A DNA stretch of 31,716 bases, from IMG/VR virus record IMGVR_UViG_3300023242_001137, positions 1 through 31,716 of that record; one strand, written 5' to 3'. The notes under the pieces were generated by a model. It searched no databases, had not been told where the DNA came from, and saw nothing but the letters and a program-made list of their open reading frames with translations. The translations under genes and the position numbers were made by a program. Origin of the DNA: a virus. Of this stretch, positions 7,844-18,289 are shown one piece after another (the first letter of the stretch is position 1; each line of letters opens with the position of its first letter).

Positions 7844-8266
7844 ATGGCAAAAATTAGAACAAAAACAAAAATCAATTGGGGTGGTTTTAATCCTGAAATT
7901 CAAAATACAATTATCAGTACGGCTACTGAATTGGTAAAAAACGAAAGAGGATGCACTTTTCAAATAAGTGATGTAGCAATGTTGGAGCATAGTGTTTTAG
8001 ATGAAAATGGTAAAGTTACTTCAACTTACGAGACCGAGTTTCAAGAGTTAAGAAACAAGCAAATAAACATTAATCCCGAAGAGTACGAACAACTATTCCA
8101 AGCAAGCAATTTGTACATGGATGAACATTATCCAATCTTAAACACAATCGAAAGAGAAGTTAAAAGATTGGATGTGGCGTTTTATTTGCACTTTACCTCT
8201 GACTTTTTACCAGGTGGAAAGTTGGGATATGGCACTGAAAGTAGCGATTGGCAAATTGTACAATAA
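7844..8266 (+). CDS. Hypothetical protein, end of fibre block
   Basis: 140 residues of mixed composition with an acidic middle (ETEFQELRNKQININPEEYEQLFQASNLYMDEHYP). It begins five bases after the fibre-tip gene. The pattern ISTATELVKNERGCTFQISDVAML is not one I can assign to a family. Its position between fibre and lysis genes suggests a virion-associated or assembly factor. Confidence 0.6.
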   Translation: MAKIRTKTKINWGGFNPEIQNTIISTATELVKNERGCTFQISDVAMLEHSVLDENGKVTSTYETEFQELRNKQININPEEYEQLFQASNLYMDEHYPILNTIEREVKRLDVAFYLHFTSDFLPGGKLGYGTESSDWQIVQ

Positions 8267-13968: not shown

Positions 13969-14207
13969 TGAATGCAAAGAAAAAACACCAACTGATGCAT
14001 CAGCTAGTTTGCATTAAAATGATTGAACTAGAAATTTACGATCAGCTAAAAACAACTTCTGAAACAATGAAACAGCAGATAAAGTTTTGCGAAGAGTTTA
14101 TCGACAGCATAGCCGATACTTTAATAGTTCAAAAAACAAGGTATTTTAACGATATGGTCAAAAAGATTGTAACAATTATTAGAAAAGATTTTAACGATAC
14201 AATGTAA
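13968..14207 (+). CDS. Hypothetical helical protein
   Basis: 79 residues, mostly helical with basic charge (QLMHQLVCIKMIELEIYDQL at the start, NDMVKKIVTIIRKDFND near the end). It is the last gene before a 286-base non-coding stretch holding three promoter boxes and two terminators. Confidence 0.55.
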   Translation: MNAKKKHQLMHQLVCIKMIELEIYDQLKTTSETMKQQIKFCEEFIDSIADTLIVQKTRYFNDMVKKIVTIIRKDFNDTM

Positions 14208-14215
14208 TAATTCAC

Positions 14216-14223
14216 TATCTTTG
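14216..14223 (+). promoter_or_regulatory. -7 box TATCTTTG, first of three
   Basis: It matches TAnnTTTG just after the stop of the preceding gene. A transcript from here would run about 60 bases into the terminator at 14262-14290 and contains no open frame. No clear -33 element is seen. Confidence 0.45.
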
Positions 14224-14261
14224 TTTTTTCATAGTTTAATTTTTTTGTTTTTAAAGTTAGG

Positions 14262-15951: not shown

Positions 15952-15959
15952 TATATTTG
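15952..15959 (+). promoter_or_regulatory. -7 box TATATTTG before structured RNA 2
   Basis: It matches TAnnTTTG and follows the YopX pseudogene by 11 bases. The expected transcription start, about 15963-15966, coincides with the first base of the 5' hairpin. No TTG is seen at -33. Confidence 0.5.
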
Positions 15960-15962
15960 CAG

Positions 15963-16054
15963 TTGAATACTTGGTAGAGCACTTATTCAATTTAAGAAAT
16001 TTTTAAAAAGCCTTACAGTGCGGAACTCTACTTCCAATCTGTAGGGCATTTTTT
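15963..16054 (+). ncRNA. Putative structured RNA 2 with kissing loop and terminator
   Basis: Hairpin 1: TTGAATA (15963-15969) with TATTCAA (15984-15990), 14-base loop containing GTAGAG (15974-15979). Hairpin 2: GCCTTACAG (16010-16018) with CTGTAGGGC (16039-16047), an inner stem GGAA/TTCC (16022-16025 with 16032-16035) and a six-base apical loop CTCTAC (16026-16031), followed by ATTTTTT. The apical loop is the exact complement of GTAGAG in hairpin 1. The gene at 16068 starts 13 bases after the T run, so the RNA may be a small RNA, an attenuator or an antitermination leader. Confidence 0.6.
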
Positions 16055-16067
16055 ATAAAATAAAGTT

Positions 16068-16730
16068 ATGGCAAAAGATAAAAAATCATTTATTTTATAT
16101 GCTGACCAGCTAGAGCACTTTGAGGATTTAACAGATGAAGAAGCAGGACAACTAATTAAACACGTTTTTCGTTACGTTAACGATAAAAATCCAGAGGCAC
16201 CAAATAGAATTATACAAGTAGCTTTTAATCCTGTAAAACAGCAATTAAAACGCGATTTAAAAACCTATGAATGCACTAAAGATGAGCGAAGTAAATCTGG
16301 GATTTTAGGTAATTTAAAAAAGTATAATTTAGATTTATTTGATAAAGTGATTGCAGAAAAATTAACTTTAGATGAAGCGCAAAGCATCGCAAAAACTCGC
16401 AAAGCATCGCAAAGCGAGAAAGTTGTCGCAAATCTCGCTGTAAATGATAATGTAAATGATAATGTAAATGTAATATCATTAAACCGTTCTGATGATTTTG
16501 CTTTGCAATGTTTACAAGACCAAATTTGGAAAGAAGCAATATTTATGCAAAAAGTATTAAACCCCTTAAACATAGAATTTGCATTAAAAGATTATAACAT
16601 ACATTTAACCCAGCAAGGCGAAAATAAAAACTCCTTAAAAGACTATAAAAGCCATTTCGTAAATTGGGTAAAGAAAAAAAAGGAACTAAAAGCAAAAGAC
16701 GTTCAATATCAAAATAAAGACAGGTTATGA
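16068..16730 (+). CDS. Replication-initiation-like protein (DUF6291 N-terminal domain)
   Basis: 220 residues. KDKKSFILYADQLEHFEDLTDEEAGQLIKHVFRYVNDKNPE, with IQVAFNPVKQQLKRDLKTYE, is the DUF6291 domain found at the start of phage replication proteins. The C-terminal part, ALKDYNIHLTQQ then LKDYKSHFVNWVKKKKE, resembles the DnaD-like tails of such proteins. Between them is a variable linker with DNA repeats (16378-16472). It probably binds the origin or loads helicase. It is first behind the terminator of structured RNA 2. Confidence 0.7.
   Translation: MAKDKKSFILYADQLEHFEDLTDEEAGQLIKHVFRYVNDKNPEAPNRIIQVAFNPVKQQLKRDLKTYECTKDERSKSGILGNLKKYNLDLFDKVIAEKLTLDEAQSIAKTRKASQSEKVVANLAVNDNVNDNVNVISLNRSDDFALQCLQDQIWKEAIFMQKVLNPLNIEFALKDYNIHLTQQGENKNSLKDYKSHFVNWVKKKKELKAKDVQYQNKDRL
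16378..16472 (+). repeat. Short repeats in the linker of the DUF6291 gene
   Basis: CGCAAAGCATCGCAAA occurs at 16378-16393 and again at 16398-16413. TAAATGATAATG is repeated twice and then partly at 16441-16472, coding VNDNVNDNVNV. Both lengths keep the reading frame. Such linkers in phage replication genes can double as iteron-like origin sites. Confidence 0.75.
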
Positions 16731-16993
16731 TAAATACAAATCGGGAATCAAAAATTACAAACTTACTTTTAGCTTCGTTGGTTTTAACAGATAATGAATC
16801 GTTTGATTTGAAAAACACAATCAAAGATATTTATCAGGAATTTGCAGAAATTAAATTTAAAATTATAAAGCAAGGTATTTTAAACGGGATTAAACATGAT
16901 TTTAATAAATCAGATAAATTTTGCACCCAGCTTATTTGCATTTGGATAAGAAATCAAATTAAAATAATTGAAAATAAAAAACCAAAATTATGA
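16727..16993 (+). CDS. Hypothetical replication-operon protein
   Basis: 88 residues, helical and basic. LLLASLVLTDNESFDL near the start and FCTQLICIWIRNQIKIIENK at the end. No family is recognised. It overlaps the genes on both sides by four bases, so it is translated with the replication genes. Confidence 0.6.
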   Translation: MINTNRESKITNLLLASLVLTDNESFDLKNTIKDIYQEFAEIKFKIIKQGILNGIKHDFNKSDKFCTQLICIWIRNQIKIIENKKPKL

Positions 16994-17445
16994 GTTGGCA
17001 AGAACAAACCGCATTAAGACGTATATTTAACGTTTTCAAACGCAACCGAACAAATGTATATCCAGAAGATATAAACGCCTTAAAAACGCTTAATGAAAGT
17101 CTAGAGGCATATCAGAAACAATTTGTAAATGACAATAAGCTATTCGCCAAACTACTATCTTTACAAATTACTCAAAATGTAAGATATTACGGAAGCATCG
17201 AAACGGCTCTAGTAGCTTTAAAAGACGACCTTAAAAACCCGCTAGAGTATAACATTACATTTTTGCAACAAGAGTTAAACCAACGTACCGTAAATGATTT
17301 TATAAACCAAAATAAAAGCATTACACGAGAGAACGAAAAGGAACTTCAAGAAAAAATTTTAGAAAGTTGGAGTTTGGAAAATGTTGAAAAATCTTTCTAC
17401 AATACTGCCAACGAAATAATTAAAAATATAGACTTTTACAAGTAA
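16990..17445 (+). CDS. Hypothetical protein, possible replication accessory
   Basis: 151 residues, all-helical, no cysteines. TALRRIFNVFKRNRTNVYPEDI and FAKLLSLQITQNVRYYGSIETAL are characteristic parts. Located between the DUF6291 gene and the RecA-like ATPase, so it may be a helicase loader or primase-associated protein. There is no direct motif evidence. Confidence 0.6.
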   Translation: MSWQEQTALRRIFNVFKRNRTNVYPEDINALKTLNESLEAYQKQFVNDNKLFAKLLSLQITQNVRYYGSIETALVALKDDLKNPLEYNITFLQQELNQRTVNDFINQNKSITRENEKELQEKILESWSLENVEKSFYNTANEIIKNIDFYK

Positions 17446-17449
17446 AATT

Positions 17450-18289
17450 ATGGAAAAGCTAAACTTTGACGAACTAGACAAAACAATAAATACCCAGCCG
17501 TTAATTAATTTTGCTGATATTTACAAAGAAGCATTAATTGACCCAAGCGAAGAAATTAAACAACAGCCGATTGCCATTAGCATAGGAGAAAGTCAATACA
17601 AGGGAAATTACTACCCGATACCATTTGGAAGTTATGGAGACTTTTCCTGCATAGTTGGAGCTTCAAAATCCCGTAAAACGTTTTTTAAATCAATGATTGA
17701 AGCGGGTTATATTGGTGGGACTGCATCGGTATTTAATCCTGGAATAAAAGGACATGAAACTAAAGATAAATTTGTAATTTCGTTCGATACTGAACAAAGC
17801 AATTTTCACACACAAAGAGTACAAAGGAGGGTTTTAGAATTAATTGGCGGAAACTATGAACTTTACAAAACTTTTTGTTTAAGGAAATATTCTCCAAAGG
17901 AAAGATTTGATTTTATTGATTGGATTGTTTTTGAGAGTGATTTTAAAGATAAAATTGGATTAATGTCAATTGATGGATTTGTTGATCTAGTGACTGATTT
18001 TAATAGTTTAGAGCAAGCGACGGGACTAACTCAAAAGTTACTAGAATGGACTTCAAAAGGTAACTTGCATTGTACTGGAATACTTCACAAGAATTTCGGC
18101 ACATCAAAACCAGTTGGCCACATTGGTTCATCGATATTAAAAAAAGCAGAAACGGTTGTTTTTGTTGAAAAAGACGAAAATAATACAATTGTAAAATGTG
18201 AATATTCAAGAAATCAACCTTTTGAACCAATTACTTTTTATGTTGACGATAACGATTGGTTGCCGAAAAGCACAAAGGATTGGATGTAA
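17450..18289 (+). CDS. RecA/RepA-like AAA ATPase
   Basis: 279 residues. The P-loop is GASKSRKT (70-77), with Arg75 where most Walker A motifs have Gly. FVISFDTEQSNFH (108-120) follows, then Walker B IGLMSID (169-175) and the sensor-like CTGILHKNFGT (208-218). The order fits the RepA/RecA-like hexameric helicase group used by phages for replication. The Arg variant of the P-loop may be normal for this Bacteroidota subfamily. It is the motor of the replication block. Confidence 0.75.
   Translation: MEKLNFDELDKTINTQPLINFADIYKEALIDPSEEIKQQPIAISIGESQYKGNYYPIPFGSYGDFSCIVGASKSRKTFFKSMIEAGYIGGTASVFNPGIKGHETKDKFVISFDTEQSNFHTQRVQRRVLELIGGNYELYKTFCLRKYSPKERFDFIDWIVFESDFKDKIGLMSIDGFVDLVTDFNSLEQATGLTQKLLEWTSKGNLHCTGILHKNFGTSKPVGHIGSSILKKAETVVFVEKDENNTIVKCEYSRNQPFEPITFYVDDNDWLPKSTKDWM

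Follow-up and report, generated by a model that had tools for sequence, protein, structure and literature searches.

Covarying kissing-loop hairpins in the leaders of Bacteroidetes phage replication operons, a candidate attenuator of initiator expression

The stretch of DNA analysed here (the window) is a 31.7-kb virus record in which a TATATTTG box is followed by hairpin 1 (HP1), a linker, the terminator hairpin 2 (HP2) and a DUF6291 replication gene with its ATG at 16068, the element itself spanning positions 15952-16054 (Table 1). The first-pass annotation had described the box, two hairpins and loops GTAGAG (L1) and CTCTAC (L2) that match in six of six bases. Direct reading gave the same sequence, and homologues with different complementary loops at 71 loci settle that the arrangement is real; HP1, which had been placed at 15963-15990, is present but slightly longer. 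The proposal that loop pairing would touch the terminator stem had to be given up, as the kissing interaction touches the apical loop of HP2 and leaves its stem free.

Table 1. Coordinates of the leader element and of the operon behind it in the window.
Feature	Position	Strand	Basis
TATATTTG, -7 box of Bacteroidetes-type promoter (TAnnTTTG)	15952-15959	+	direct reading; about the same place in most relatives
HP1, 9-bp outer stem	15961-15992	+	RNAfold; stem covaries in relatives
L1, GTAGAG, apical region of HP1, pairs with L2	15974-15979	+	direct reading; L1/L2 covariation in relatives
A/T-rich linker	15993-16009	+	alignment A2; little divergence compared with other regions
HP2, with a lower terminator stem of 9 bp, an internal loop and an upper stem (GGAA/TTCC) of 4 bp	16010-16047	+	RNAfold; both stems covary in relatives
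HP2 lower stem	16010-16018/16039-16047	+	direct reading
HP2 upper stem, GGAA/TTCC	16022-16025/16032-16035	+	direct reading
HP2 apical loop L2, CTCTAC, fully complementary to L1	16026-16031	+	direct reading; covariation
T-run TTTTTT of the intrinsic terminator, ending 13 nt upstream of the ATG	16049-16054	+	direct reading
DUF6291/DUF7833 protein, probable phage replication initiator	16068-16730	+	Pfam PF19808 (E 4.9e-21), PF25200 (E 9.2e-12); relatives annotated 'replication protein' in cultured phages
Downstream operon genes	16727-18289	+	ORF list

HP1 and HP2 together form the predicted minimum-energy fold of the leader (RNAfold, -26.6 kcal/mol, z -3.1), a value matched by 1 of 200 shuffled sequences. 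When shuffled leaders were supplied with the -7 box and the T-run and passed through the element scanner at a lenient threshold, 39 of 5000 reached that threshold, so that the leader of the window taken by itself is only moderately unlikely. With its G+C-rich hairpin and the T-run behind it HP2 corresponds to an intrinsic terminator as usually defined; a generic terminator scan of the window missed it, probably because of the internal loop. Since the -7 box is conserved but a -33 motif is not enriched upstream of the elements, we treat the promoter as putative. None of the downstream operon genes matched a PHROG; the ATPase-like protein encoded at 17450-18289 may be a helicase partner of the initiator, judging by its place in the operon and by comparison with other phages.

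Homologous loci were collected with the replication protein as query in an IMG/VR search (80 loci), in an alignment-based search (80 loci, partly overlapping) and from 24 bacterial contigs. Most viral copies of the gene have the same upstream layout with different loop letters, and the 71 loci that keep the architecture with perfectly complementary loops display 37 distinct loop-1 strings. L1/L2 pairs among these relatives comprise TCGGGCAGG/CCTGCCCGA, CCTTCGAC/GTCGAAGG, AGTCCTAC/GTAGGACT, GCTCTCAC/GTGAGAGC, GGCTGGAC/GTCCAGCC, ACGACCAA/TTGGTCGT and others. The GTAGAG loop of the window recurs at loci L004, L007 and L020, and its near relatives bear GTAGGAG/CTCCTAC (L100) or CGGGCAGG/CCTGCCCG (L006 and phage 11b). 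The pair can be switched on near-identical backbones, as in L139 (CTCTCAC/GTGAGAG) versus L140 (CTTCCAC/GTGGAAG) and in L145 (CGTCTAAC/GTTAGACG) versus L155 (GGTCTAAC/GTTAGACC). A structural scanner returned 115 matches at a score of at least 28 in 1.2 Mb of locus sequence, compared with one in the reversed sequence. Among cultured phages the element is carried by Olleya phage Harreka_1, by the Flavobacterium phages 11b, lillamy and other mumin phages and the elemo phages, and by the Cellulophaga phages phi13:2 and phi19:3, the elemo isolates of one host having two loop alleles. Two elements with different loops reside in a single phage in several cases (L007, L087, L134, L152 and phi13:2); in L007 they stand in tandem at 2418-2530 (GTGAGACAC/GTGTCTCAC) and 2898-2990 (GTAGAG/CTCTAC), each followed by a gene of its own. 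The elemoA phages L086 and L200, otherwise almost identical, diverge in patches that comprise the element and the preceding tRNA region. An unusual version was seen in the Pedobacter sp. Leaf170 chromosome (L103, about 7850-7990), where a DUF6291 gene is accompanied by a perfect inverted repeat of 18 nt and by what looks like a GATTGACA/TGTCAATC pair. In Cellulophaga phages phi38:1 (first 50 kb) and phi18:1 we found no convincing element, the one weak match in phi18:1 lying inside a gene.

Covariation was evaluated in alignment A2, which contains 32 members of the main subclass; the window belongs to a neighbouring subclass and was excluded. The loop-loop helix is 96.5% paired, and double changes occur in seven of its eight pairs; the aligned sequences are related, so that these changes are not independent events, yet there are 37 different loop strings. 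All five pairs of the HP1 stem change on both sides, and the upper and lower stems of HP2 covary in relatives as well. For the whole structure including the kissing helix 92.2% of the cells are paired, with a covariation score of 0.679 versus 0.204 in shuffles, none of 500 reaching the observed value. Sliding the partners by one to three columns abolished the signal (27-49% paired, score 0.05-0.15). G-U pairs are absent from the 247 paired cells of the kissing helix, whereas the HP1 stem and the HP2 upper stem have 12 in 247 (p = 4e-4). The compensating changes in related phages that the first-pass annotation had named as its check are thus present, and in the neighbouring subclass covariation is visible in the loop pairs of the window, L100, L006 and phage 11b. 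At the level of sequence comparison these results demonstrate folding of both hairpins and pairing of their loops, and the covariation rules out an ordinary chance terminator. Although the sequences are unrelated, the distance between L1 and L2 clusters at 47-56 nt (full range 41-69 nt, without helical periodicity), as would be expected if both loops pair in the same molecule.

Loop variety alone is no proof of diversifying selection. Among the closest backbones the divergence of the loops is 0.36, compared with 0.42 and 0.36 in ordinary stems; the loops change no faster than the stems, drift is enough to account for their variety, and we rejected diversifying selection on these grounds. The linker, with a consensus of about GRADTTATTNA in the main subclass (alignment A2), and the internal loop of HP2 are nearly invariant across relatives. 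The simplest reading of these patterns is that the kissing helix is a structural helix which would drift through compensatory changes, the unpaired motifs of the scaffold around it being conserved.

The element lies within 2.5 kb upstream of 78 of the 121 distinct viral DUF6291 genes (reversed control, 2), and in 62 of the 121 it is at most 60 nt from the start codon. The scanner rules are strict, and several DUF6291 genes without a scanner match have an element by eye. When the element is not directly adjacent to the DUF6291 gene, the interval is occupied by small ORFs, a ParB-like gene or homing endonucleases. A DNA-pattern scan that does not depend on the protein placed the element at the head of further operons, some encoding another putative initiator (MSGWIKIHR...) together with an ATPase/helicase-like protein and one including a thymidylate synthase-like gene, these names being read from the sequence. 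The element therefore belongs to operons rather than to one gene: it heads replication-initiator operons irrespective of the initiator family and of which gene comes first, and in occasional cases it heads other early operons. The suspected link to replication is borne out by the presence of the element before a different putative initiator and by the annotation of the DUF6291-type gene as 'replication protein' in elemo phages and Harreka_1. Like elements also precede NUMOD4/HNH-like homing endonuclease genes (L134 2697, L152 3938, L044 970 and L018 2353; names read from the sequence), and one stands before a T5orf172/GIY-YIG-like gene on a bacterial MAG contig (L104 173-290). Between the terminator and the small first gene a second similar stretch, AACTAAATAGTT ... 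CGGTAATCTTTAAACCG with variants, was noticed in L011 (about 2738-2775), L007 (about 2530-2566) and L195 (about 14200-14250), which may be another hairpin or a binding site.

Loop 1 recurs as a third copy (L3) at about -13 to -1 of the initiator start codon in six loop groups. Copies of at least six letters were counted at nine loci, compared with 0.15 expected by permutation, although at one of the nine, L043, the copy is inside the initiator gene rather than ahead of it; most members, the window included, have none. In these groups L2 therefore has L3 as a second potential partner and, by pairing with it, can cover the start site instead. In L024 and its relatives, which have no third copy, the start codon of the rep gene sits in a small inverted repeat, TTTTGC-AATG-GCAAAA.

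According to their description (PMC7077304) the mumin phages, which are among the carriers, can replicate only lytically, and of 23 bacterial contigs with DUF6291 four have the element. We therefore consider a general role in lysogeny unlikely, and lysogenic immunity as the general purpose of the element was discarded as unsupported. A search of 296 Flavobacteriales genomes with model R1 gave no match, a weak result given the strict filters and a model sensitive mainly to the main subclass.

We hold with moderate confidence that the element is a conserved 5' leader of Bacteroidetes phage replication-initiator operons which works as a cis kissing-loop attenuator limiting initiator expression. 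Transcription would begin just past the -7 box, HP1 would fold first and HP2 next, and L1 would kiss L2 in cis; the product would be a compact RNA, roughly 90 nt long, with its 3' end at the intrinsic terminator of HP2. The majority of transcripts would end there, leaving a stable small RNA, and initiator mRNA would arise from read-through alone, which would keep initiator expression low. L2 could also block translation via L3 or pair with sister transcripts, providing feedback as genome copies rise. The gap between L2 and the ATG has a median of 41 nt and contains a second TAnnTTTG in 3 of 97 units; as the T-run ends shortly before the ATG and a second -7 box is rare, mRNA from this promoter must pass the terminator, making the leader an attenuator by position. 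Against this reading count the elements that precede non-initiator genes (homing endonucleases, a ParB-like gene, a thymidylate synthase operon), the absence of L3 from most members and the outcome of our search for an antiterminator. We found no convincing competing antiterminator stem; pairing of AAGG in the linker with CCTT is possible in many members but is lost when the linker changes (by eye, alignment A2), and was rejected.

Control of replication by kissing apical loops with private loop sequences is known from ColE1 RNA I/RNA II and other plasmid copy-control antisense RNAs. The element resembles the ColE1 pair in its complementary apical loops (7-nt loops in subclass II) and in the replication function controlled, but both of its loops are on the + strand of one leader, mostly 47-56 nt apart, whereas the ColE1 RNAs come from opposite strands of one DNA. 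Phage P4 silences its own replication genes by means of CI RNA, which base-pairs with two flanking copies, seqA on the upstream and seqC on the downstream side (PMC4825925). The parallel comprises the leader of a phage replication operon, an internal segment complementary to an upstream copy (always here) and to a downstream copy (in six loop groups, the window not among them) and the expected stop of replication genes. In contrast to P4, the L2 segment forms the loop of a terminator hairpin rather than part of a processed RNA, the complementarity comprises 6-9 nt between loops, the downstream copy is usually absent, and the carriers include virulent phages. IsrK of Gifsy-1, a structural relative of the P4 leader, is likewise a small RNA from early leader termination that pairs with downstream sequence of the same transcript, but its complementarity is longer and it controls translation leading to an antiterminator gene in a prophage. 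The element might be a trans-acting self-antisense RNA of the P4 CI kind: terminated leader molecules would build up, and their L2 would bind L1, and L3 where present, of other copies, shutting replication genes of the phage itself and of co-infecting phages with the same loops (RNA incompatibility or superinfection exclusion). The L1-L2-L3 layout, the 37 private loop pairs, the two alleles among elemo isolates of one host and the different loops on two elements of one phage would suit such a role, which we nevertheless rate as possible but rather unlikely, since drift suffices for loops that diverge no faster than stems, L3 is confined to a minority of members and L1 on the same molecule quenches L2. 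A self-targeting lock-and-key among virulent phages, each with private kissing loops, in which the terminated leader would act in trans on the replication genes of same-loop phages and the loop type would define an RNA incompatibility group, is similarly doubtful.

The conserved unpaired linker and the HP2 internal loop could be a protein site, and the element heads several early operons, features that would be expected of a put- or nut-like antitermination platform in which RNA polymerase or a phage protein would be bound by the folded leader and polymerase would pass HP2 and later terminators. In HK022 put, too, two adjacent stem-loops come right after an early phage promoter, according to the available text of PMC9378689. 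As described in that text, put suppresses pausing and termination and is itself no terminator, and a loop-loop helix is not reported for it; the second hairpin of the element is itself a terminator and no partner protein was identified, so that we consider this function unlikely. The compact fold, the conserved unpaired motifs and the members that precede unrelated genes would equally be compatible with a stable small RNA that has a protein or RNA target elsewhere, its place before replication genes being secondary, but an element that consistently heads replication operons with different initiator families renders this improbable. The lack of G-U in the pairing is what one would expect if L1, L2 and L3 were DNA sites, operator half-sites or iterons inverted by chance. 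Here, however, L1 and L2 are in hairpin loops closed by independently covarying stems, and the lack of helical periodicity in their spacing also speaks against DNA operators, which were ruled out for these two reasons; chance inversion of DNA sites is accordingly highly improbable.

At gathering score the Rfam 15 covariance models had no match in the window or in 20 relatives, all matches of the window being far below that score. In the literature, largely outside subscription papers and outside large RNA catalogues such as PMC8040213 with its thousands of candidates, we found no description of the element. As there is no Rfam match and the defining features of P4 CI, ColE1 and put are not all established for it, we judge the element to be a new RNA family of the phage leader-attenuator kind.

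The preservation of lock-and-key pairing with quite different letters in dozens of phages suggests that viral replication is under a form of RNA control not described before. If the attenuator reading is right, a widespread group of Bacteroidetes phages would control its commitment to DNA replication by a previously undescribed leader RNA whose first hairpin senses the terminator loop. The loci would then amount to a natural collection of kissing-loop pairs, dozens of them built on one scaffold, and to a testable case in lytic phages of RNA-controlled replication, for which plasmids and temperate elements such as P4 have so far been the main examples.
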